From positions 1-64,000 of the forward strand of contig CAUJDF010000004.1 in assembly GCA_963169045.1 (NCBI GenBank): 64,000 nt of DNA, written 5' to 3'. The stretch comes from Myxococcota bacterium. GTDB lineage: Bacteria > Myxococcota_A > Bradymonadia > UBA7976 > UBA1532. The position numbers were made by a program, and so were the translations under genes. How positions within the stretch are numbered: the stretch's first letter is position 1; every line of letters begins with the position of its first letter. The notes under the pieces are model-generated. The model searched no databases, was not told the DNA's origin, and was given only the letters and a program-made list of their open reading frames with translations. Positions 16,457 to 64,000 of this stretch are shown piece after piece.

Positions 16457-17436
16457 GGACCGTCCCAGGGCTGCGCGCGCACCTCGTCGATGCGCTCGGC
16501 GCCGGTGAGCAACATCACGAGCCGGTCGAAGCCCAGGGCGATGCCCGCGGTCGGACGCATGCGCCCGAGGGCGCCGACGAGCGCGTCGTCGATCGGCGGC
16601 ACCGGCTTCTGCAGGCGATGGCGATGATCCCGGTCGTCCTCGAAGCGCCGCCGCTGCTCGGCCGGATCGGTCAGCTCGTCGAAGGCGTTGGCCAGCTCGA
16701 GGCCGCCCGCGTACAGCTCGAACCGCTCCGCGACCGAAGGATCCCGCGTGTTGAGCCGCGCGAGCGCCGCCTGGCTCGCCGGATAGCCGTACAGGAACGT
16801 CGGGCGGTCCTGCCCGAGCTTCGGCTCCACGGAATTCAAGAAGATCTGGAAGAAGACGTCGTCCCAGCACGGGCTGTCGGTGGGCACGTCGACGCCGGCG
16901 GCGCGGCCGGCCGCGCGCAGGTCGTCGGCGAACGGGTGCTCCCACGGGTCGACCCCGGCGTGCAGGCGGAACGCCTCGCGCATCGACAGCCGCTCGAACG
17001 GCGGCTCGAGCGAGACGGCGCGCCCGCGGAAGGTGAGGCCCGTGCCGCCGTGGAGCGCCCGGCAGACCGCCGCCAGCATCGCCTCGGTCTGGGCCATCAG
17101 CCCCGCGAGGTCGAGGCCGACCTCGTACCACTCGAGCATCGTGAACTCGGGCGCGTGGGTGCTCGATGGCGGCTCGTCGCGGAAGCAGGGCCCCACCGCG
17201 TACAGCCGCTCGAAGCCGAGCTCGCCGAGCAGGCGCTTGAGGGCGTACTCCGGGCTCGTGTGCAGCCAGCGCCGGTGTGCGTGGCCATCGACGGCGAACG
17301 GGTCGAGGTGCGGTTCGAGGCCCGGCGAGCGGACGATGATCGGCGCCTCGATCTCGACGAAGCCACGTTCGTCGAAGAAGGCGCGCGCGGCGCGCAGCGC
17401 GCGCGCCCGCGCCTCGAGTCGGGCGCGGCGGCTCAC
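16453..17436 (-). CDS. epmA: Elongation factor P--lysine ligase (EpmA/GenX/PoxA-type)
   Basis: 327-aa class II LysRS-like protein lacking the anticodon-binding domain, the size of E. coli EpmA (325 aa). EpmA attaches (R)-beta-lysine to EF-P to help ribosomes through polyproline. Motif 2 CFRDEPPSSTHAPEFTMLEW and motif 3 ALGFDRLVMLL are present, with LYGYPASQAALARLN for substrate binding. GTG start overlaps the upstream ParB-like gene stop (GTGA). EF-P and EpmB genes are not in the window. This proteome is rich in Pro stretches, so a polyproline rescue factor makes sense. Confidence 0.9.
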   Translation of the reverse strand: MSRRARLEARARALRAARAFFDERGFVEIEAPIIVRSPGLEPHLDPFAVDGHAHRRWLHTSPEYALKRLLGELGFERLYAVGPCFRDEPPSSTHAPEFTMLEWYEVGLDLAGLMAQTEAMLAAVCRALHGGTGLTFRGRAVSLEPPFERLSMREAFRLHAGVDPWEHPFADDLRAAGRAAGVDVPTDSPCWDDVFFQIFLNSVEPKLGQDRPTFLYGYPASQAALARLNTRDPSVAERFELYAGGLELANAFDELTDPAEQRRRFEDDRDHRHRLQKPVPPIDDALVGALGRMRPTAGIALGFDRLVMLLTGAERIDEVRAQPWDGP

Positions 17437-18398
17437 GTCCGGAGGCGCGCCGCCACGCGGGCGAAATAGGTGACGAGCTTCTCGAGCGCGGCGCGGTCGT
17501 CGGCCTCGAGCTCGCCCCAGTGCGGCCGGAGGGCGGCCACCCACGCGGCGCCCTCGGCGAGATGGTGCCGGGCGTCCTCGGCCATGTCCTCGAGGAACAC
17601 GTCCTCGCTGACCGCCTCGTCGTCGGCCGAGACGAGCGGGAGCACGTCTGCGAAGCCCGGCGCGTCGCCCAGGCGCGCGGCGAGGTGCCGGACGGCGTTG
17701 GGCGACACGCCCTCGACCAGGCAGTTCTCGGCCACGTACAGCGCGGCGGCGGTGCCCGGGTCGAGGTCGCGCACGACGCGCACCAGGGCGTGCGTCATGC
17801 CGGCGCGCTTGAGCGCCGCGAGGCGGCGGTAGCCGGTGACGAGGCGCCAGCCGTCGCCGTCGGGCGTGACGACCATCGGCTGCAACTGCCCGAAACGCTT
17901 GATGTTCGCGGCGAGGCGGGCCACGCCGCGCAGTGGGCGGGGCCGCGACTCGGGATCGGTGGTGATGTCGGCGAGCGGAACACGGCGCTCGACGGCGGCC
18001 TCGGCCGCGGCGCGGCGCGCCCGGGCCAGCAGCCGCTCCGCCTCGGCCTCGCGCGCCTTGAGCTCGAAGCGCGTCGCCTCGAGCGCGGCGCGGGCCCGGT
18101 CGAGGTCGCCGCGTGCCGCGTCGAGCGCCGCCTCGCGGTGCCGCAGGTCCTCGCGCTCGCGGCGGACCTGCTCGGCCACCTGCCGCGCCTTCTGGAGCCG
18201 CTCGCGGTCGCCGAGCGCTGCCCGCAGCGCGTCGCGCCCCCGCTCGGGCAGCCGCGCCACGACCCAGGCCAGCCATGCCGGCGCGCCGGGATCGGGAGCC
18301 CCGGCCTCGGAGAACCCCTGGCGCGCGCGGTCGGCGATGCCCCGCGAGCGTTCGGCGACGACGCGCTTGAACTGATCGAAGTCCGTCCGGCGGCCCAT
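17433..18398 (-). CDS. ParB/Spo0J-like nuclease-domain protein with coiled coil
   Basis: 321 aa. N-terminal ~70 residues, then a long heptad-like coiled coil (about 75-150, Arg/Glu/Ala-rich), then a ParB-type N-terminal domain (about 150-235): VPLADITTDPESRPR, LAANIKRFGQLQPMVV, WRLVTGYRRLAALKRAG and YVAENCLVEG. A canonical ParB helix-turn-helix is not obvious and no ParA gene is adjacent, so it is not the chromosome partition pair. Chosen start is ATG 18398; a TTG at 18434 would extend it by 12 residues, and neither has a strong ribosome site. First gene of the epmA-birA-coaX operon. Confidence 0.8.
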   Translation of the reverse strand: MGRRTDFDQFKRVVAERSRGIADRARQGFSEAGAPDPGAPAWLAWVVARLPERGRDALRAALGDRERLQKARQVAEQVRREREDLRHREAALDAARGDLDRARAALEATRFELKAREAEAERLLARARRAAAEAAVERRVPLADITTDPESRPRPLRGVARLAANIKRFGQLQPMVVTPDGDGWRLVTGYRRLAALKRAGMTHALVRVVRDLDPGTAAALYVAENCLVEGVSPNAVRHLAARLGDAPGFADVLPLVSADDEAVSEDVFLEDMAEDARHHLAEGAAWVAALRPHWGELEADDRAALEKLVTYFARVAARLRT

Positions 18399-18455
18399 GG
18401 GCGGCAGGCTCGCAAAGGCCACCTCCGGTGTCAACGGGACCCCCGGGTCAGCGCT

Positions 18456-50729: not shown

Positions 50730-51607
50730 GCGCCGCCCACCGTGAGCGCCTGAGAACGGCCTACGCACGCATCGCAAGGGAGCACGGAGACTGGCCCGAC
50801 TGGGCCGCCCCGCTCGTCGCGCCGATCCCCTTCGTCGGCGACCACTACGCCGAGGACCCCGACGCCCCGCGCCTGCTCGTGTACGCCTCCGCCGAGAACC
50901 TCATCACCTCGAAGAGGCTCGCCGCGCCCTGGTTCGACGACGCCTCCCTGGCCCGCGACCGCCACCGCTTCACCTGGACGCGCGGCTGGTCCGACGTGGC
51001 GCCCGGCACGCGCATCGGCGTCGCCCCTTACGAAGACGGCCCGCTGCTCGAAGCCGCCGACCGCCTGTGGCGCTGGGAGCGCGACGCCGGCCGCGCCGCC
51101 CGTCCCGTCCCCGAGCAGCCCGCGGCCCTGACGGAGCACGTCGCCGTCGCCAACTTCTCGAAGTTCGCCCTGAGCCCGGAAAGGGCCAACGACGACGTCG
51201 ACGACGAAGCGCGCCTGCGCGACTCGCTCCCCTACGTCCAGGCTGACCTCGACCTGCTCCGCCCCTCGGTCGTGCTCCTCGCGAAGACCCTCTCCGCCGC
51301 GCTCACCGCCGAAGTCGCCCAGTTCGCTGCCCGCCGCGGCGCCCTCCTCGTCGTCATGCCCCAGGCCTCCGGCCAGGGCCCGCTGCACGCCCCGGCCCAC
51401 CTCGCGCGCATGCGCCACCCCGAGGCCGTCGCCGACCTCGCGCCGCTCCGCTCGCTCGCCGGCAAGCCGCGCACCGGCGGCGCCTGGCCTGCATGGTTTG
51501 CGCTGCTCCGCGCCCGCTACGATGCCGCCGCGACGTGCCTGCGCGCCGCCGAGAGTTTTTCCGACGGCACGGGCGCTTCGCGTCGAGCGGGCCTGGAGGC
51601 GCAGTAG
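50726..51607 (+). CDS. Uncharacterised DISARM-linked protein, possibly UDG-fold
   Basis: 293 aa; the GTG overlaps the drmMI stop, so it is translated with the methyltransferase. No signal peptide. An alpha/beta pattern with hydrophobic strands followed by Asn/Lys motifs: VGDHYAEDP, RLLVYASAENLI, VAVANFSKFAL, DLDLLRPSVVLLAKTL, ALLVVMPQASGQG. This resembles the strand order of uracil-DNA-glycosylase-like proteins (NxxK and 'L.P..V' motifs), but the diagnostic UDG motifs (GxDPY, HPSP) are not seen, so the fold call is a guess. Could also be a DNA-binding accessory. It is not one of the five core class 1 DISARM genes. Confidence 0.6.
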   Translation: MSAAHRERLRTAYARIAREHGDWPDWAAPLVAPIPFVGDHYAEDPDAPRLLVYASAENLITSKRLAAPWFDDASLARDRHRFTWTRGWSDVAPGTRIGVAPYEDGPLLEAADRLWRWERDAGRAARPVPEQPAALTEHVAVANFSKFALSPERANDDVDDEARLRDSLPYVQADLDLLRPSVVLLAKTLSAALTAEVAQFAARRGALLVVMPQASGQGPLHAPAHLARMRHPEAVADLAPLRSLAGKPRTGGAWPAWFALLRARYDAAATCLRAAESFSDGTGASRRAGLEAQ

Positions 51608-51680
51608 CTCCGAACACTCGAGCGTGAGCTCCGAACATTTGAGCGTGAGCTCCGAACATTTCGTACCGCGGGTCCGAACA
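51606..51680. repeat. Four TCCGAACA boxes in 21-bp tandem repeats
   Basis: TCCGAACA at 51609, 51630, 51651 and 51673, spaced 21, 21 and 22 bp. The first two full 21-bp units (51606-51626, 51627-51647) are nearly identical; the third (51648-51668) diverges at its end. The array lies at the very end of the upstream gene and in the gap before the promoter at 51728. Two-helical-turn spacing suits cooperative regulator binding; repeated TGTTCGGA on the other strand also resembles terminal repeats of some transposons. Confidence 0.8.
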
Positions 51681-51823: not shown

Positions 51824-51955
51824 ACCCGCCCTGGGTAATCGAAGAGAAGCCCGGCCGCGTCGCGGCCGATGCCGCCCGTTCCCGAACCGAATGGCGTCCG
51901 TTTCGACGGACGAGGGTCGGACGCGCGCTCGACCGGGCTCGAGGAAGTCCATTCC

Positions 51956-54823
51956 GTGAACGTCAGTCCCAATCCGTTGGCGTCCTTCGTCGAGCTCGAC
52001 GAGGACGAACTGAACAGCCTCGTCGAGCAGTGGCGCGACGTGGTGCCCCTCGACGATCCGAGGCCGCTCATCGCCTGCGCCTATGCCCTCGAGCTCCACG
52101 GCAAGGAGCACCCGCTCGGCCCGCCAGGCGGCCACCGCAGCTACAAGTCCACGATCGACTGGCTCGTGGAGTTCCTCGAAGCCGCTCCGGCGCACCGGGG
52201 ACGTTCGTTCCAGTGGCATCTCACCCGCTACGCCCTGCTCGGGCGTGGGCGGCCGGAGGCCTGCGCGTGGATCCGCGCGACATCCGGCGAGGGCGACGCG
52301 TTCGCGCTGGCCGGTGTGCGCCTCGTCCCTCGCGTGGACGCGTCCATGCTTCTGCCGCACGTGCTGCACCACCTGGGCGATGTCGCCGCCGTCACCTTCC
52401 TCGCGCACAACGTCGACGCCTTCGAGCGGCTGCGTGACGTCGGCGCGCTGGTGGTGGCCCTCGCCCGCATGCTGGCGGCGGACGAGCGCTCGCACGGCGT
52501 CGGCGACCTGCTCGGACGTCTGGCGAAGCGGCTGGACGGTCCCTCGCTCGTCCTCGTGCTCGCGGCGATCGCGCCCGCGCTCGACCGGCAGTGCCGCGAC
52601 GAGTACGCGCGGATGAACGCCTGGGCGCACTTCCAGCTCGAGGGCCTCGCCGTCGAGCCGCTCGTCGAGCGCGCGTTCGGCGGGCGGCGCGACGCCACCG
52701 TGCCGGACGGCCTCACGGCGGCGGCGTCCGCGTCGCCCGGCGTGGCGTGGGCGGTCGGTCGCACGCTGGGCGCGGGTCAGCTGCTCGGCCGTCTCGTCGC
52801 CGAGGACGCCAATGGCGTGCGCGCGCTGCTCGCCGCGTGTCCGGCGGCGGTGTCGGCGCTCCTCGCCGAGCGCCGGCCGCACGAGCGGAGTGGGAGCGAC
52901 GAGGAGCTGCGGGCCGTCTTCGCCGGCGAGGCGCGGTTCCTGGACGTCGCCCTCCCGCCGGGCGAGCGCCTGGTGTTGCTGGTCCTCGTCGGCACGCCGG
53001 CGGCGGGCGAGGGTGTCGTCGCGATCCTGCGCGACGCGCGCGCGCCGCTGGACGCCGGGCTGATCGCCTGGGCAGCCGACCACACGCGGGATCTCGTGCC
53101 CGCGGCGGCCCTGGTCGAGCGCGCCGCCCGTGACTGCCTCGTCGCGCTCGAGAAGTCGGCGCGGCTGCGGGCGTTCGCGACGCGGCACGAGCCGTCGCGT
53201 GACGTGCTGCTCGGCGCCGACCCGCTCCGACTGGTCGACGAAGCGCCGACCGTCGCGATGGCGGTGCTCGGCGGACGAGACACCGCGCTCGCCGCGCTCG
53301 ATGACGAAGATCGGCTGTCTCGGCTCCCCCTCCTGGTGGCGATCAAGACCGAGGCGGCGTTCGCGAGGACGTCGCCCTGCCTCACGCCGTGGGCCGACTT
53401 GTGGAACGAGGGGCGCGCGCCATACGTGTCGCGTCATCACCCGCTCATGCGGGCTTCCACGGAGTGGCTCGCGAGGTGGCATGGCGCCGGCATCCTGCCG
53501 CTGGACGCGGTGCGTGACGTGCTCGCCGCCCAGGTCCGCGGGCGGAACCTGTTCGACGACGAGACCGACGGCGGCCACCCGTCCTCGTCCGGCGCGATTC
53601 CGGCCGCGCTGGCGCGCGACCTGATCGACCTGCTCGTCGGAGAGACCGAGACCACTTCCGCCGGCGACCTGGGGCGCGCCCGTCTGTTCGGGGCTTGCGC
53701 GGCGCATGCCTTGCGTGGCGGGTCGCTCGACGTCCCGTCGCTGGCCGAGAAGCTGCAGGCGTTCCTCGGCGAGCGCACGTTCGTCGCGGAGTGGGTCGCC
53801 ACGGCCTTCTTCAGGGCGATTCCGGCGGCCGAGTGGCCCGACGTCGTCCGGCGTCTCCTCGACGAGGTGCCGGAAGATGTCGCGTCGCGTCTGCGGTCGC
53901 GCCGCTGGGACGACGAAACCGCCCTCGACGCGCTGCGCTCGCTCGCCGGGGAGGCGCTGTCCAGGCGGCGGCCGCCGCTCGCCGGGCTGCCGCGCGACAC
54001 CACCCTCGATCCGCGGCCGTGGCGGCGTGCCATCGCCACGCTCCTGGGCGAGGCCGCGCGCGACGAAGCGCCCGACGACGCCGCGCTCGGCGACGACGAC
54101 CTCGACGCGTGCTGGGACGCGGTCGCCACCGAGGTCGCCGCACGAGCGGCGGCGCCGGCCGTCGACTCGCACCTGGCGGAGCGGCTCGTGCGGACCGCGG
54201 GCCGGGCGGTCGTGCGCGCCTTGGCGCGCAGGCTCGACGACGCGACCCTCTCCGCGGTGCGCGACGCGCTCGGGACCCACTACCCGACGCGTCCGCGGCT
54301 GGAGCAGGCGCTCGCCGCCGCGGGCGTGGGCGCCGTCGGCAAGGTCGCCGATGCCGCGGCGGACGAGCGGCTGCCGAAGCTGCTCCGCGACGCGCTCGCC
54401 GCCGTGCTCACCCATCGGGTCGAGCACTGGTCCGAGAGCGACGACGCGCCGGTGACGCTCGCCGCCGCCGTCGTCGACGCGGTCTTCGCCGCTTGCGCGA
54501 ACCACCCGGCGATGCCCGCGCGGCCGCTCGTCGATGTCCTCGCCGAGCACGGCGACGCCCGCGCCGGCGTCGACGTCATGCGGGGGATGATGTTCGCGCT
54601 GGGCGACCTGCGCGAGCCGCTGGGCGGCCGCCCGTCGAAGGTGCTCCTCGGCCTTTCGCGCAACGACGATTTGCCCGACGCGCTGCGTCACGCGGCCGAG
54701 ACGCAGAAGCGGCTCTTCGACCGCGACAACCTCAACAAGGGCCGGTTCCGCAAGGCCGAGGCGCGCACCGCCAAGGCGCTCGAGAGCATCCGCGTCGGCA
54801 GCCAGCGCACCGCCGCCTCGTGA
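51956..54823 (+). CDS. Large uncharacterised helical protein in DISARM insert
   Basis: 955 aa; GTG 51956 with GAGGAA about 9 bp upstream is preferred over ATG 51869, which lies in the structured leader. No signal peptide, membrane helix, Walker or nuclease motif. Composition and pattern suggest a long array of helices, perhaps HEAT/ARM-like (VLHHLGDVAAVTFLAHNVDA, LVRTAGRAVVRALARRLDDA, DALRSLAGEALSRR). C-terminus basic (NLNKGRFRKAEARTAKAL). Could be a scaffold or sensor protein. Same strand and 85 bp ahead of the ATPase gene. Not recognised. Confidence 0.72.
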   Translation: MNVSPNPLASFVELDEDELNSLVEQWRDVVPLDDPRPLIACAYALELHGKEHPLGPPGGHRSYKSTIDWLVEFLEAAPAHRGRSFQWHLTRYALLGRGRPEACAWIRATSGEGDAFALAGVRLVPRVDASMLLPHVLHHLGDVAAVTFLAHNVDAFERLRDVGALVVALARMLAADERSHGVGDLLGRLAKRLDGPSLVLVLAAIAPALDRQCRDEYARMNAWAHFQLEGLAVEPLVERAFGGRRDATVPDGLTAAASASPGVAWAVGRTLGAGQLLGRLVAEDANGVRALLAACPAAVSALLAERRPHERSGSDEELRAVFAGEARFLDVALPPGERLVLLVLVGTPAAGEGVVAILRDARAPLDAGLIAWAADHTRDLVPAAALVERAARDCLVALEKSARLRAFATRHEPSRDVLLGADPLRLVDEAPTVAMAVLGGRDTALAALDDEDRLSRLPLLVAIKTEAAFARTSPCLTPWADLWNEGRAPYVSRHHPLMRASTEWLARWHGAGILPLDAVRDVLAAQVRGRNLFDDETDGGHPSSSGAIPAALARDLIDLLVGETETTSAGDLGRARLFGACAAHALRGGSLDVPSLAEKLQAFLGERTFVAEWVATAFFRAIPAAEWPDVVRRLLDEVPEDVASRLRSRRWDDETALDALRSLAGEALSRRRPPLAGLPRDTTLDPRPWRRAIATLLGEAARDEAPDDAALGDDDLDACWDAVATEVAARAAAPAVDSHLAERLVRTAGRAVVRALARRLDDATLSAVRDALGTHYPTRPRLEQALAAAGVGAVGKVADAAADERLPKLLRDALAAVLTHRVEHWSESDDAPVTLAAAVVDAVFAACANHPAMPARPLVDVLAEHGDARAGVDVMRGMMFALGDLREPLGGRPSKVLLGLSRNDDLPDALRHAAETQKRLFDRDNLNKGRFRKAEARTAKALESIRVGSQRTAAS

Positions 54824-54908
54824 CCCACCCGCCGCCCCGCCCACCTTGCGACCGTCCGAAGCCCTCTGCTAAGAGGGCCCAGGACCGTGGCGAGCGCGCG
54901 AGGCCTTG

Positions 54909-56102
54909 ATGGCGACCCGATTCGATCGCATTCACGTCAGGAACTTCCGTTCCCTGGCCGACGTGGATGTCGGGCTCCGCGACGTGAACGTCCTCTTCGG
55001 CCGCAACGGGTCGGGCAAGTCGAGCTTCCTCGACACCTTCTGGTTCGCTCGGGACTGCGCCGCGCGCAGCGTGGAGCTCGCGTCTTCCTCGAGGAGCCAC
55101 GGCATCGGCTTGCGCTTCGACGGCGCGCCCGACGATGCCCTCATCGAGGTCGCCCTCCGTTCCGGGACGCTGCAGTACGCGCTTCGTTTCGGACTCTCCT
55201 CCGGACGCATCGAGCCGTTCCCCGGCGAGCGGCTCTCGCTCACCTCCGACCCGAGCGAAATTCTGATCGAGCGAGAGGTCGGCAGCGACATGGCGCGCTT
55301 CCGATTCGAGCTGCTCGACGAGACGACGGTGCGGCTGCGGGAGCCACAGAAGCTCAGCCTCGCGCGCTACGCCGATCTCGAGCCCGGGGACGCCGCCGAG
55401 ATGGACCGCTCCTTGCGGTACATCCACAAGTACGACGCGCGGAAGTTCTTCCTGAATCGCATCAAGTCCCAAGGCTCGGAGGCAAGTCACGAGACCTTCC
55501 TGTGGGACTTCGGCGACAACGTCTGGTCGGTGCTGCGCAATCTCCTCGGCAAGGCGAAGGTCGACCATCGCTACGAGACGATCATCCGCTACATGCGGGA
55601 GGCGTTTCCCGAGTCGTTCGAGGATCTGGTGCTCGAGGCGACCGGTCCGACGACGGTCTACGGGAGCTTCGTCGAAAGAGGGCGGCGACGGCCGATCCTC
55701 GCTTCTGGGGTGTCCGACGGCCACCTGCAGATGCTCCTGCTCCTGACGGCTCTGTTCTCGGAAGGGGAGTCCCGCGGCTCGTTGATGATCTTCGACGAGC
55801 CGGAGATCTCCCTGCACCCGTGGGCGATCGCCGTCCTGGCGAAGGCGATGCGCGAGGCCGCCTCTCAATGGAGCAAGCAGATCGTCCTGGCCACGCATTC
55901 GCCCGTGCTGCTCAGCCAGTTCGAGCCCGTCGAAATCCTGGTGTCCGACGTCGTCGACGGACGCACTCGCCTGCAGCGGCTCAGCGAAGTCCACGAGGTC
56001 GAGGACCTGCTGAGGGACTATTCCGTGGGCACGCTCTACATGAGTGAAGCGGTCGGAGCGCAGAGCGGCCCGACGTCGCGGGCGGACGACCAGGCCGATT
56101 GA
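54909..56102 (+). CDS. AAA/ABC-type ATPase of a two-gene defence-like module
   Basis: 397-aa ATPase of the AAA_15/AAA_21 (SMC/RecF-like) group. Starts IHVRNFRSLADVDVGLRDVNV, Walker A FGRNGSGKSS at 30-39; a helical insert (about 90-240); ABC signature-like ASGVSDGHLQM, Walker B SLMIFDEPEISLHP near 292, and H-loop VLATHSPVLL near 327. Such ATPases pair with Toprim or HNH effectors in OLD, PARIS, AbiL and Gabija systems. ATG 54909 follows AGG; its stop overlaps the partner's ATG. Codon use is less GC-extreme than drmD. Confidence 0.88.
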   Translation: MATRFDRIHVRNFRSLADVDVGLRDVNVLFGRNGSGKSSFLDTFWFARDCAARSVELASSSRSHGIGLRFDGAPDDALIEVALRSGTLQYALRFGLSSGRIEPFPGERLSLTSDPSEILIEREVGSDMARFRFELLDETTVRLREPQKLSLARYADLEPGDAAEMDRSLRYIHKYDARKFFLNRIKSQGSEASHETFLWDFGDNVWSVLRNLLGKAKVDHRYETIIRYMREAFPESFEDLVLEATGPTTVYGSFVERGRRRPILASGVSDGHLQMLLLLTALFSEGESRGSLMIFDEPEISLHPWAIAVLAKAMREAASQWSKQIVLATHSPVLLSQFEPVEILVSDVVDGRTRLQRLSEVHEVEDLLRDYSVGTLYMSEAVGAQSGPTSRADDQAD

Positions 56103-56860
56103 TGTGGAAGTTCGTTCGGTTCGGTCTGTTCGTGACCGGGAAGGGGGAACGCACGTTTTTCCCCGCTTTCCTGCGTTCGCTCACGGAGTCCGGTCACTGC
56201 ACGTTCGACGTCGTCAGACAGGTGCCGCAGCTGAGCCCCCGCACGTCGGGCAAGCATGAGCTGAAGATCGTCGGCACTTCGCGCCATCTGCCGACCCGGG
56301 ACGAGGAGCTGGGTCTCTTCGCCCGTGGCTATCTCGACCGGTATCCCGACGCGTTCGTGCTGCTCGTCGACGATCTCGAACACGATCGGCGAAGCGTGCG
56401 CGTGGATGTCTTCGCTCGTTATCGGAACGCCCTCGACGGAATGCTCGGCGAGCGAGGATGGCGCGCTGGAGTCCACTTCCTCGTCAACATGCTCGAGGCG
56501 TACTACTTCGCCGACGCTGCCGCCGTGAACGCCGTCCTCGGTACGAAGCTCGTCGACCACACAGGCGACGTGGAAGAGATTCGTCATCCGAAGAACGACC
56601 TGAAGGCCCTGTCGCCCGGCTTCGACGAGGTCAGACACGGCGCGGAGATCGTGCGCAGGCTCGACGTGCCGCACGTCCTCTCGCGACCTGAAACCTGCGG
56701 GTCGCTCCGCGCCATGTTCGCCTGGTGCAGCGCCGCGCTCGCCGAGGACGCGGGGGCGCGCTTCCGATTCGCGGACGGAACGTACGACGAGGTCACGCGT
56801 CCGCAGGTGCGACGTCTCGCTGAGAACCTTGCACGCCGCGGCGGCGAGCCGACGGGCTGA
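56102..56860 (+). CDS. Toprim-like (DUF4276/RloB-type) partner of the ATPase
   Basis: 252 aa; ATG overlaps the ATPase stop by one base (tgATG). Pattern fits Toprim-like partners: FVTGKGERTFFPAFLRSLTE (Gly/Glu/Arg near residues 11-22, like the EGxTE motif), FVLLVDDLEHDRRSVR (acidic DD at about 84), and VHFLVNMLEAYYFADAAAVN (Glu). This resembles DUF4276 or RloB proteins that accompany AAA ATPases in defence loci. If so it would be the nuclease effector; the exact family is inferred. Followed by a promoter gap before drmA. Confidence 0.72.
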   Translation: MWKFVRFGLFVTGKGERTFFPAFLRSLTESGHCTFDVVRQVPQLSPRTSGKHELKIVGTSRHLPTRDEELGLFARGYLDRYPDAFVLLVDDLEHDRRSVRVDVFARYRNALDGMLGERGWRAGVHFLVNMLEAYYFADAAAVNAVLGTKLVDHTGDVEEIRHPKNDLKALSPGFDEVRHGAEIVRRLDVPHVLSRPETCGSLRAMFAWCSAALAEDAGARFRFADGTYDEVTRPQVRRLAENLARRGGEPTG

Positions 56861-60306: not shown

Positions 60307-62142
60307 ATGTCCGGCAAGCCCGACACGAAGGAGGCGCTGCAGCCCGAGGGCAAGGTGCGGCGCAGCCAGATGCTGACGAGCTACGGGCCGGGCGCGCTCG
60401 TCGACCTGCTCGACTACGCGGTCATCGTCAACGGCCTCGATTTCTGGAAGTACGGCAAGAAGGAAGGCATCGAGGTCGTCGAGGAGCCGCGACTGCGCGA
60501 GCGCCTCACCGCGCGGTTCAAGAAGCTCGGGCGCGACCTGCGGGTCGAGGGGGCGTTCCGCACGCCGCCCGCGGGCGACGACGCGCGCCCGAGCCCATAC
60601 CACGGCGTCACCGCGCGTCTGTTCCCGCGCTGGTTCGTCTGCCAGCGCTGCCGCGCGCTGGTCCGGTACGACGGCCTCGAGTTCAGGGGCGGCCGGTTCC
60701 TGCACGGCTGCCATGGCAAGGGCGTCGAGTGCGTCCCCGTGCGCTTCGTCCAGGCCTGCCCGAGCGGACACGTCGACGACCTGAACTGGATCGGCGTCGC
60801 CCACCAGGGCCCGCCGTGCGACGCGCCCTCGCTGAGGCTGCAGGAGGGCGTGACCGGCGACTTCAGCGAGGTCCGGGTCGAGTGCGAGACGTGCCGCAAG
60901 TCGCGCTGGCTCATCGACCTCAAGCAGCCCGAGACGCGCCCGAAGTGCCGCGGCACGCGTCCCTGGCTCGGCCCCGAGGGCGAGGAGGCGTGCGAGCAGC
61001 CGGCGACGCTCATCGTGCGCACCGCCAGCAGCGCCTACTTCAGCCAGACCGACAGCGCGCTCTCGATCCCCGAGAAGGAGAACGCGCTCCACGAGGCCGT
61101 GCTGAAGCACAAGGCGATCCTGCTGAACGCCACCGCGGCGACATTGTCGGCGTTCCGAACCATCCCGCAGGTCGGCGCCGACGTCGCGCCGTGGACCGAC
61201 GCCCAGGTGCTCGACGCGGTGGAGCTCATCAAGGCGGGCAAGAAGCCGGAGCGGCCCCCCATCCGCACGGCCGAGTTCCAGCGATTCGTCGAGGCGGAGT
61301 GGGAGACGCCCGGGCAGATCCCGCCGCCCGGCGTGCACTTCTTCGCGCGGCGCGCCAAGGTCCCGGCGCTGCCCGGCGTCGAGCGCGTCGTCCTCGCCCA
61401 CAAGCTGCGCGAGGTCCGCGTGCAGGTGGGCTTCACCCGCCTCGACTTCCCGACGCCGACCCTGCAGGGCGAACACGACCTCGGCGTGCGCAGCGCGCCT
61501 GTCGGCCTCAACACGGACTGGCTGCCGGCGGTCGAGGTGTTCGGCGAGGGGCTGTTCCTGCGGCTCGACGAGCAGGCCGTCCAGGCGTGGGAGGCGCGTC
61601 CGGAGGTCCAGGCGCGCGAGGCGGCGCTGCGCGGCGCCTTCGACGCGGCCTTCTCGTCGCGCGACGTGCCGCCGCCGTTCCCCGGCGCGCGCTTCTACCT
61701 GCTGCACAGCCTCGCGCACCTGCTCGTCACCGCCGTGTCGCTCGAGTGCGGCTACTCGGCGAGCGCCATCCGCGAACGCATCTACTGCGCGCCGGCGACG
61801 GACGCCGTGCCGATGGCGGCGATCCTCCTGTCGACCGGGACGCCCGGCACGGAGGGCACGCTCGGCGGCCTCGTCCAGCAGGGCCGCGACGTCCACGCGC
61901 ACCTGCGGCATGCGATGCGGCTCGGCCGCCTCTGCTCGAACGACCCGGTCTGCGCGGCGCACGATCCGCTCGGACCGACCGAGCGCCGCCTCGAGGGGGC
62001 GGCCTGTCACGGCTGCCTGTTCACCGCCGAGTCGTCCTGCGAGTGGTTCAACCGCTACCTGGACCGCGCGCTCGTGGTGCCCTGCCTCGGACGCCCGGCC
62101 GCCCTCGCGTTCTTCGGAGACGGCGAGTGGCCGCAGACCTGA
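60307..62142 (+). CDS. drmB: DISARM DrmB (DUF1998)
   Basis: 611-aa DrmB, forms the core complex with DrmA. N-terminus KVRRSQMLTSYGPGALVDLL (conserved in DrmB). Zinc-like Cys pairs FVCQRCRALV and ECETCRKSRW. C-terminal DUF1998 signature: HSLAHLLVTAVSLECGYSAS, IRERIYC, then a Cys cluster near 541-600 (CSNDPVCAAHDP, AACHGCLFTAESSCEWFNRYLDRAL). ATG starts one base after the drmA stop; its last 16 bp overlap drmC. Confidence 0.94.
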   Translation: MSGKPDTKEALQPEGKVRRSQMLTSYGPGALVDLLDYAVIVNGLDFWKYGKKEGIEVVEEPRLRERLTARFKKLGRDLRVEGAFRTPPAGDDARPSPYHGVTARLFPRWFVCQRCRALVRYDGLEFRGGRFLHGCHGKGVECVPVRFVQACPSGHVDDLNWIGVAHQGPPCDAPSLRLQEGVTGDFSEVRVECETCRKSRWLIDLKQPETRPKCRGTRPWLGPEGEEACEQPATLIVRTASSAYFSQTDSALSIPEKENALHEAVLKHKAILLNATAATLSAFRTIPQVGADVAPWTDAQVLDAVELIKAGKKPERPPIRTAEFQRFVEAEWETPGQIPPPGVHFFARRAKVPALPGVERVVLAHKLREVRVQVGFTRLDFPTPTLQGEHDLGVRSAPVGLNTDWLPAVEVFGEGLFLRLDEQAVQAWEARPEVQAREAALRGAFDAAFSSRDVPPPFPGARFYLLHSLAHLLVTAVSLECGYSASAIRERIYCAPATDAVPMAAILLSTGTPGTEGTLGGLVQQGRDVHAHLRHAMRLGRLCSNDPVCAAHDPLGPTERRLEGAACHGCLFTAESSCEWFNRYLDRALVVPCLGRPAALAFFGDGEWPQT

Positions 62143-62861
62143 CGCGCGTCGGGACGGGGCGACTGCGGGCGCTGCGCGACGCGCTCGCGGCGGGGCGCCT
62201 GCCCGTCCCGCTGCGGCCCGAGGACGTCGGCGACGCGTCCGCGTTGCTCGGCCTGGAACCCGCCGCGGCGCTCGCGGTGCTCGACGCCGTCCTGGCCGAG
62301 CGGGCCGCCGACACGCGACCCGCTCAGCTCGTCTGGACGGGCCCGCACCCCGTCCACAGCGCCGCCCGCGACACGTCCGTCGTCCTGCGCGAGCTGTTCG
62401 AACGTGCCGCGACGCGGGTGATCGTCGCCGGCTACGCCTTCGACCACGGCCGCGAGATCTTCGCGCCGCTGCACCGCGCCATGGTGGAGCGGGGCGTCGC
62501 CGTGCGCCTGTACCTGAACATCGCCGTCGGCGACGACGAGAGGGACGCCGCGCCCGACGCCATCATCGACGCGCGCGTCGCCGGTTTCCTGCGCGACAAC
62601 TGGCCGTTCGGCGCGCCGCCGCCGGCGATCTTCTACGACCCGCGGCCCGTCACGACCGAGCGCTTCACGAGCCTGCACGCGAAGTGCGTCGTCGTCGACG
62701 AGGCCGCCGCGCTCGTCACCTCCGCGAACTTCACGAGCCGCGGCCAGCACCGCAACGTCGAGGTCGGCGCGCTGATCCGCGACCCGGTCTTCGTCCGCGC
62801 GCTCGCCGCGCAGTGGGACAACGCGACGAGCCACCACCTGTTCGTCCGCCACGACCGCTGA
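62127..62861 (+). CDS. drmC: DISARM phospholipase D-like DrmC
   Basis: 244-aa PLD-superfamily protein, third core DISARM subunit. HKD motif LHAKCVVVDEAAALVTSANF near residues 182-201; the ~90 N-terminal residues are helical, then RVIVAGYAFDHGREIF. Only one clear HKD copy, so it would act as a dimer, as in PLD nucleases. Start GTG 62127 is inside drmB (16-bp overlap). DrmC is reported as dispensable in some DISARM systems. Last gene of the drmABC unit; the hairpin array begins 12 bp downstream. Confidence 0.9.
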   Translation: MAADLTRVGTGRLRALRDALAAGRLPVPLRPEDVGDASALLGLEPAAALAVLDAVLAERAADTRPAQLVWTGPHPVHSAARDTSVVLRELFERAATRVIVAGYAFDHGREIFAPLHRAMVERGVAVRLYLNIAVGDDERDAAPDAIIDARVAGFLRDNWPFGAPPPAIFYDPRPVTTERFTSLHAKCVVVDEAAALVTSANFTSRGQHRNVEVGALIRDPVFVRALAAQWDNATSHHLFVRHDR

Positions 62862-62873
62862 CGCGCGCCGCGC

Positions 62874-63110
62874 CGCCTCTGCCGGCGAGAGGCGCATCGC
62901 GCCGACGGCGGGACGCCGCCTCCGCCCCGCAGAGGACGCGCCCCCCGGCGACCGCGCGCCGCCTCCGCCGGGCAGAGGCACGGCGAGGCGATCCGCCGTC
63001 TCGTCCTCTGCCCCGCGGAGGACGCGCCCGCCGACGACCGGATCCCGCCTCTGCCGGGCAGAGGCGCACCGCGGCGACGGGACCCGATCGCCTCTGCCGG
63101 GCAGAGGAGC
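62874..63110. repeat. Six-unit 43-bp palindromic hairpin array
   Basis: Six ~20-bp palindromes start at 62875, 62918, 62961, 63004, 63047 and 63090, exactly 43 bp apart. Type: GCCTCTGC-CGG-GCAGAGGC (63047-63065). Stems of 7-9 bp in the better units; unit 4 (63003-63023) has swapped end pairs (GTCC…GGAC against CGCC…GGCG) that keep pairing. The 23-bp spacers are GC-rich, diverged but related around a GCGACG core. 43 bp is not a multiple of 3, so it is not coding. No cas genes are near. Confidence 0.88.
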
Positions 63111-63175
63111 GCGCCCCCACCGCGCAGGTCGATCGAGAGACCGCGGGAGGGGCGTGCAAGATCGAAAAGATTTTC

Positions 63176-63186
63176 CACCAGTGGTG
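63176..63186. promoter_or_regulatory. Palindrome upstream of the sigma54 promoter
   Basis: CACCA-G-TGGTG, a perfect 5+1+5 palindrome, about 65 bp upstream of the -24 element at 63251 and within an unusually AT-rich stretch (63158-63210). Also ATCGAAA (about 63161) and TTTCGAT (about 63198) form a wider inverted repeat. Candidate activator site. Confidence 0.45.
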
Positions 63187-63250
63187 CCGACATTTCCGAT
63201 TTCGATAAAACCGGCGTGCCCGCACCCGCGCCGAGGCCCGAAGTACCGTG

Positions 63251-63266
63251 TGGCACGAACCCTGCT
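63251..63266 (+). promoter_or_regulatory. Sigma54-type promoter
   Basis: TGGCACGAACCCTGCT: -24 TGGCACG, 4-bp spacer, -12 CTGCT; GG (63252-63253) to GC (63264-63265) has the obligatory 12-bp register. One mismatch (C for T) to the consensus TGGCACG-N4-TTGCW. It lies 59 bp upstream of the ATG at 63325. Confidence 0.65.
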
Positions 63267-63324: not shown

Positions 63325-64000
63325 ATGGCGAATCGAAAGCATGAGACGGCGGGATCGCTGCGGAAGGCGGGGCTGCTCGCGTTCGTGGCGTGGCTCATCG
63401 ACGCCGGGCGCGAGCGCTTCTGCGTCGCGCTGGCGGGACGCATCTACGTGGAGCCGATCGCCGCGGCCTATGCGGCCGTGACGAAGCCGGCCGCCGGGGC
63501 CGCGCCCGCTGCGGACGGGCCCTCCGGCGAGACGTTACAGGCGCACACCGACCTGGGGCTCGCCATCTGGTACGGCCTGGCCGGCCTCGCGACCAACCTG
63601 GAGTGCGACGCGGCGACGCGCGGCGCGGCGGTCCGCACGCGGGACTTGTTCGGGGGAAAGCCGATGAGCCCGCACATGCGACCCGAGCAGCGCGTCGAGC
63701 GCGCCGCCGCCGTCCGGAGCGAGCTGCCGTCGCGCGAGGCCGAGATGGCGCTGCTGACCGCGGCGCCGGGCGGCGCGGCGCTCGTGCGCTGGATCCACGA
63801 GTGGTGCGCCGTCGCGGCCGGCATGGCCGAGGGCTTCGTGGACGCGGCGGTCGAGCGCAAGAAGGCCGCGCCGCGCGCGGCCTCCGAGGACACGAAGGGG
63901 ACGAAAGTGCGCCGGCTCCTCGGGCTGGTCAACCGTGCCCGCGTCGCGCTGCGCGACGAGGTCGCCCACGACGAGCGCCTGCCGCGCACGCTCGAGACGG
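63325..64000 (+). CDS. Uncharacterised protein, partial (runs off window)
   Basis: At least 225 codons with no stop before the window end. ATG 63325 follows GAAGAAGGGAGAGAC. Begins MANRKHETAGSLRKAGLLAF, no signal peptide; a helical pattern (WLIDAGRERFCVALAGRIYV, YGLAGLATNLECDAATRG, RWIHEWCAVAAGMAEGFVDA) and a basic linker (VERKKAAPRAASEDTKGTKV) before a further helix. Three Cys, no recognised motif. Downstream of a sigma54-type promoter and after the hairpin array, so not part of the DISARM operon. Function unknown. Confidence 0.75.
   Translation, partial: MANRKHETAGSLRKAGLLAFVAWLIDAGRERFCVALAGRIYVEPIAAAYAAVTKPAAGAAPAADGPSGETLQAHTDLGLAIWYGLAGLATNLECDAATRGAAVRTRDLFGGKPMSPHMRPEQRVERAAAVRSELPSREAEMALLTAAPGGAALVRWIHEWCAVAAGMAEGFVDAAVERKKAAPRAASEDTKGTKVRRLLGLVNRARVALRDEVAHDERLPRTLET

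Follow-up and report, generated by a model that had tools for sequence, protein, structure and literature searches.

The window (the whole stretch of DNA analysed, 64,000 nucleotides of contig C4) contains near its right end a class 1 DISARM operon, drmD-drmMI-...-drmA-drmB-drmC, which ends at 62861 with the stop codon of drmC (62859-62861). About 10 bp past that stop begins an intergenic array of six palindromes (Table 1). A sigma-54 site on the plus strand is located 144 bp downstream of the array and is followed, on that strand, by a gene for a 288-aa protein. Convergent with this gene, and beyond the window at contig positions 64193-65782, is a gene for an RtcR-type CARF/AAA+ activator.

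Table 1. Features at and around the palindrome array (positions in the window)
Feature	Position	Strand	Remarks
drmC, PLD family, last gene of class 1 DISARM operon	62127..62861	+	PADLOC DrmC E=1.7e-59, Pfam PLDc_2; upstream neighbour, outside the element
Array of six 43-bp units	62874..63110	none	17-bp dyad core + 26-bp variable spacer
Palindrome 1 CCTCTGCCGGCGAGAGG	62876..62892	none	
Palindrome 2 CCTCCGCCCCGCAGAGG	62919..62935	none	
Palindrome 3 CCTCCGCCGGGCAGAGG	62962..62978	none	
Palindrome 4 CCTCTGCCCCGCGGAGG	63005..63021	none	outer pairs changed on both sides
Palindrome 5 CCTCTGCCGGGCAGAGG	63048..63064	none	
Palindrome 6 CCTCTGCCGGGCAGAGG	63091..63107	none	
AT-rich promoter-proximal stretch with TTTCGATA element (ATTTCCGATTTCGATAAAACCGG), candidate RtcR site	63172..63215	+	common to the array-less C11 promoter
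Sigma-54 -24/-12 site TGGCACGAACCCTGCT	63251..63266	+	GG-N10-GC, 11/12 consensus positions
288-aa protein gene	63325..64000 (to 64191 on contig)	+	predicted target of the sigma-54 site

The six 17-bp dyads follow one another at a pitch of exactly 43 bp, or about four helical turns, with the consensus CCTCYG-N5-CRGAGG (also written CCTCYGCC-SSG-CRGAGG-like). The array was called by TRF at periods 43 and 86, and its lag-43 periodicity, corrected for composition, was strong (z = 10.6). Arms of 5-7 bp, in phase, were 88-93% paired as compared to 67-74% in column-permuted arrays; the observed level of dyad pairing was reached in 0 of 150 column permutations (P<0.01). Between-unit identity was 0.84 in an 18-bp core and 0.46 in the remainder (P < 0.0005). 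The positions, the TRF calls, the periodicity and the permutations thus bear out the description in the initial annotation of six palindromes at an exact 43-bp period. It was also correct that the array is noncoding, being intergenic and of a period not divisible by 3, and that it is unlike a CRISPR. The array does have the repeat-spacer look of a CRISPR, but CRISPR spacers are unrelated (~26-72 bp) and accompanied by cas genes, whereas here the repeats are 17-20 bp, the spacers (~26 bp) are related to one another, and no cas gene was present among the genes scanned (PADLOC: DISARM genes near the array). A CRISPR was therefore rejected.

Unit 4, in which two outer pairs are changed on both sides (GTCCTC/GAGGAC), had been taken as a hint that pairing itself is selected. 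The double change is real, but one-sided changes within the arms were observed in four of the six units, so that base pairing is not clearly the target. Units 2 and 3 have CCTCCG opposite CAGAGG, unit 4 has CGGAGG and unit 1 GAGAGG; the CCTCYG variation is tolerated alike in both half-sites and is mostly uncompensated. As judged from the sequence, such variation would fit the half-sites of a dimer better than it would fit selected pairing.

The uncompensated changes also count against the array acting as a structured RNA or as a multi-hairpin 3' end of the drm operon, a reading we consider improbable. The array does lie directly after the drmC stop and, in line with the original suggestion of a structured RNA, it folds better than column-permuted arrays (z = -4.2 on the plus strand, -2.6 on the minus strand). 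However, there was no Rfam match up to E=1 and no U-tract terminator across the array, and in 29 relatives drmC is not followed by an array. An array of intrinsic terminators was ruled out, as no stem-loop is followed by a T run. The drmC loci of the relatives (array at 0/29) also indicate that the array is not a part of DISARM and rule it out as a DISARM boundary; the proposal that it marks an end of the DISARM island was not upheld, and the array is independent of DISARM.

The palindrome array was not found elsewhere in its own genome, in 379 genomes of the phylum, in a one-genome-per-species collection, or in viral contigs. Near matches outside the array were at background level, with none in the 379 genomes, and a whole-array blast-type search in the family returned weak GC-rich matches. 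A look-alike at C38:138399-138517 was rejected as a chance occurrence in coding sequence, the proline-rich linker of a protein kinase. The palindrome itself is thus not distributed as in REP/BIME elements, where one palindrome occupies many intergenic loci. The initial annotation had let the pattern stand or fall with a second locus or a relative showing it; the palindrome sequence has neither, but the 43-bp pattern recurs, as described below.

The known element with a closely similar anatomy is the F-plasmid partition site parS/sopC, with twelve 43-bp repeats and 16-bp inverted repeats (PMC6238139). As in sopC, where SopB sites lie in direct repeats of exactly 43 bp and most repeats have one 16-bp inverted repeat, the array consists of 43-bp direct repeats with inverted-repeat sites. 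It differs in being on a chromosomal contig, in its sequence, in having a sigma-54 promoter adjacent, and in having no linked parAB operon found. No parA/parB operon, relaxase or replication gene was found among the genes searched in the window and its flank, and the single weak ParB_N-like gene (17436-18434) is 45 kb off. A centromere-like partition site of the sopC kind is therefore very unlikely to be the explanation.

The sigma-54 site has the exact GG-N10-GC spacing. On either strand about 100 kb separates one site of this kind from the next, giving a chance of ~0.003 for one within 300 bp on the right strand. The neighbouring activator matched PF06956 (E=4.7e-37) and Sigma54_activat and is 52.6% identical to the canonical RtcR of the genome. 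A same-strand -24/-12 promoter downstream and the gene of an enhancer-binding protein nearby are what is seen at a sigma-54 enhancer (UAS). The 288-aa protein had no Pfam, NCBIfam or PADLOC match; its model is all-helical, of moderate confidence (pLDDT 74), and a fold search with this model yielded no match with E below 0.001. Paralogues of the protein are encoded in its own genome, and no related loci were detected in the genome-contig collection searched. The convergent pair of 288-aa helical protein and divergent RtcR (CARF) activator (C4 63325-65782) recurs at C101 and, in degenerate form, at C56.

At C101:39634 the paralogue is paired with a convergent RtcR, and its promoter carries a sigma-54 site (TGGCACGCCGGCTGCT) together with eight 42-bp units (one step 43) of core GAGTCGARCCGG; the paralogue at C70:89909, without a local RtcR, has a sigma-54 site (TGGCACGCCACGTGCT) and five 43-bp units with the core CTTCCAGTCTCGAAGACG. 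Both arrays are ~117-145 bp upstream of the promoter. Of the sites with a sigma-54 score of at least 11 at the RtcR-linked loci scanned, those of C4, C101 and C70 alone showed strong upstream 42/43-bp periodicity. The promoter of the C11 paralogue, the ORF of which is intact (not a pseudogene), is homologous to that of C4 (an 80-bp match at the 63172-63215 stretch, P<0.002), but its -24 GG has been lost and it lacks an array. C56 has no array and no sigma-54 site, and the RtcR paired with the gene there is missing the GAFTGA loop. The three array-bearing paralogous promoters, together with array-less C11 and C56, make an enhancer reading attractive.

In the specific form of that reading, a special case of the explanation we prefer (given below), the array would be a distal enhancer for the adjacent RtcR, with six dimers loading hexameric activator(s) onto sigma-54 polymerase. 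It is consistent with the adjacency, the sigma-54 site and the distance, and has a precedent in the UAS, IHF site and -24/-12 promoter of E. coli rtcBA (PMC9650030). Like the UAS of RtcR and other sigma-54 activators, the array has its dyads at an upstream distance of 140-380 bp from a -24/-12 promoter, and the cognate activator gene is adjacent. The 6-5-6 geometry of the dyads is likewise seen at RtcR-like promoters of two relatives (G001 and G002), where TGGTGC-N5-GCACCA is repeated at 20 and 45 bp spacing; repeated dyads with the geometry of the array core thus do occur at such promoters. In these relatives (L098:5796-5906 in G002 and the matching L099 region in G001), an RtcB gene, an RtcR-like regulator and a sigma-54 site (TGGCACGGGGCCTGCT) accompany the paired palindromes, which are a clear candidate, from sequence, for the UAS of a second RtcR branch.

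Unlike a typical RtcR UAS, however, the array comprises six sites at a fixed pitch, its sequence is absent from other RtcR promoters, and a separate conserved element lies closer to the promoter. The array cores differ among the paralogous promoters (C70 and C101 have cores of their own), and no array is present at C11 or at the canonical rtcR-rsr promoter, C79. A proximal TTCGAT element, in contrast, was found in all five RtcR-linked promoters of the genome (C79, GGTTCGATACG; C4, ATTTCGATAAA; C11, ATTTCGATAAG; C70 and C101, CGTTTCGATGC), with TTCGATAnGAACGG common to the C79 and C11 promoters (P=0.016), and the canonical RtcR promoters of relatives have one AT-rich dyad each at a comparable position. 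As the TTCGAT element is common to RtcR promoters, including those without an array, it gives RtcR another candidate site, and a simpler one. RtcR may therefore do without the array, and its site could be elsewhere. We regard the RtcR enhancer as possible but doubtful.

The 43-bp pitch is not confined to these promoters. At least 7 noncoding 41-43-bp arrays with unrelated units were located in 1.6 Mb of contigs from the same genome, leaving out L125, whose repeat is of 21 bp, and L151, a below-threshold array upstream of asnS. Lag 43 prevailed (four arrays) among tandem lags not divisible by 3 in this sample, the others amounting to three cases only (41, 77, and a 29/34/56 cluster); the C70 array (L122) is not an unbiased match, because C70 was chosen for its paralogue. 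Noncoding 42-bp arrays number at least two if only clear cases are counted (C75 and C11:42600), and C56:34754 is a weaker one. Extrapolation from the 1.6-Mb sample would give several dozen such arrays per genome. Family relatives, sampled over 395 kb, yielded one such array, of 7 units at 42/43 bp, in G006, from a related genus. A search of the open literature turned up no account of 42-43-bp phased intergenic arrays as a class in bacteria of this kind.

Individual members of the class are varied. A second 43-bp family, with core GCGCGAACGTTCGCG, occurs at L116:1-330, L117:5244-5410, L068:3653-3740 and L219 (C96, C69, C48, C77), the C48 copy being directly upstream of a divergent rtcR. The 42-bp intergenic arrays at L186:2599-2792 and L162:8907-9310 (C11, C75) have the hairpin cores AACCCGTCTTCGCGGGTT and CCAGTGTCGGASACTGG, and nine near-perfect 41-bp tandem units, GGGCAGCGCGCCTGTTGCGCCCGGCGGCGGCG..., fill the intergenic region L120:10584-10961 (C70:50584-50961). 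The C70 core reappears at C58 with unrelated spacers. Neither the C58 array nor those at C69, C38 (L176) and C29 (L168), the latter three between convergent genes, has a sigma-54 site, which rules out an RtcR UAS as the explanation of every array. We also noted a multi-copy gene family of ~220 aa (L128:15384 and L176:7384-8082; C70, C38), within its family only in this genome, two members of which adjoin a 43-bp array.

The breadth of this class raises the possibility that the arrays are passive intergenic repeats, REP/BIME- or NIME-like, generated either by tandem duplication on the spot or by an enzyme that mobilises them, and without a role at the promoter. The abundance of the arrays in the 1.6-Mb sample agrees with it, as does their location, which is close to random placement among intergenic regions between tandem, convergent or divergent genes; core alpha is present at two unlinked loci and core beta at four. 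At the class level the arrays indeed resemble REP/BIME and REPIN elements, as short intergenic palindromes clustered with spacers at several loci per genome. The NIME/dRS3 elements of Neisseria are likewise short intergenic palindromes in spacer-separated clusters at several loci. The REP/BIME-like suggestion of the initial annotation holds in this sense, with 41-43-bp arrays dispersed in the genome and two families at 2-4 loci, but not for the palindrome itself, which is found at one locus only. REP/BIME, REPIN and NIME elements also differ from the array in that it is strictly head-to-tail, and from the class in that its members have a common pitch and unrelated cores. Neutral duplication would not predict the strong conservation of core relative to spacer in this array. 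Outside C4 and C101 such clustering was only borderline, and a significant dyad was absent in most other arrays, which weighs against the explanation we prefer. Finally, the 1.6-Mb sample contains 32 strong sigma-54 sites, only 1 of them accompanied by an array, as compared to three RtcR-partner promoters with one; as a sequence association this enrichment argues for a link, with the qualification that the RtcR-partner promoters are related by descent and not fully independent. We consider passive repeats rather unlikely as an account of this array.

The most plausible account of a conserved dyad core, a free spacer and a fixed four-turn pitch is that a dimeric DNA-binding protein has its sites along one face of the double helix. 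Of the four readings in the initial annotation, a protein-bound array is thus the best supported, by these features and by the half-site-like variation. The explanation we favor, at about an even chance of being correct, is that the array is a set of helically phased dimer-binding sites, one of a lineage-specific class, in the distal control region of an RtcR-linked sigma-54 promoter and independent of DISARM. A dimeric protein would occupy the six dyads as a row at the DNA level, and the four-turn pitch would set the bound dimers on roughly the same face, forming one nucleoprotein complex. The array would act as a distal control region upstream of the sigma-54 promoter from which the 288-aa gene, the partner of the RtcR-type activator, would be transcribed, and would belong to an intergenic class that has the 41-43-bp pitch in common and not the core sequence. 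Both the binding of a protein and the modulation of the promoter, as a distal enhancer or architectural element, we infer from the sequence. The neighbouring RtcR is tentatively the first candidate for the bound protein; another regulator or an architectural protein could also fill the role. Equally tentative is a broader view, in which a mechanism that reads helical pitch instead of sequence (a bridging or wrapping protein, or an enzyme duplicating at a fixed step) makes and keeps the arrays, with RtcR-partner promoters having adopted them as control regions. There would then be several dozen arrays in this genome, and others in at least one related genus, with a ~18-bp core differing by locus.

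If the arrays are bound platforms, they would represent bacterial control DNA with a fixed helical pitch and freely changing sequence, and would connect an uncharacterised 288-aa protein family with the signalling family of RtcR/CARF, which is known above all from RNA repair. The three paralogous promoters in one genome make the platform idea directly testable.

The DISARM region has two further features of its own. Between drmMI and drmA (window 51869-56860), the operon encodes a 984-aa protein without a known family and a pair consisting of an AAA_21 protein (OLD/AriA/HEC-01-like) and a DUF4276-like protein. A 21-bp repeat, AGCTCCGAACATTTGAGCGTG, is present in 2.7 copies at window positions 51606-51661.
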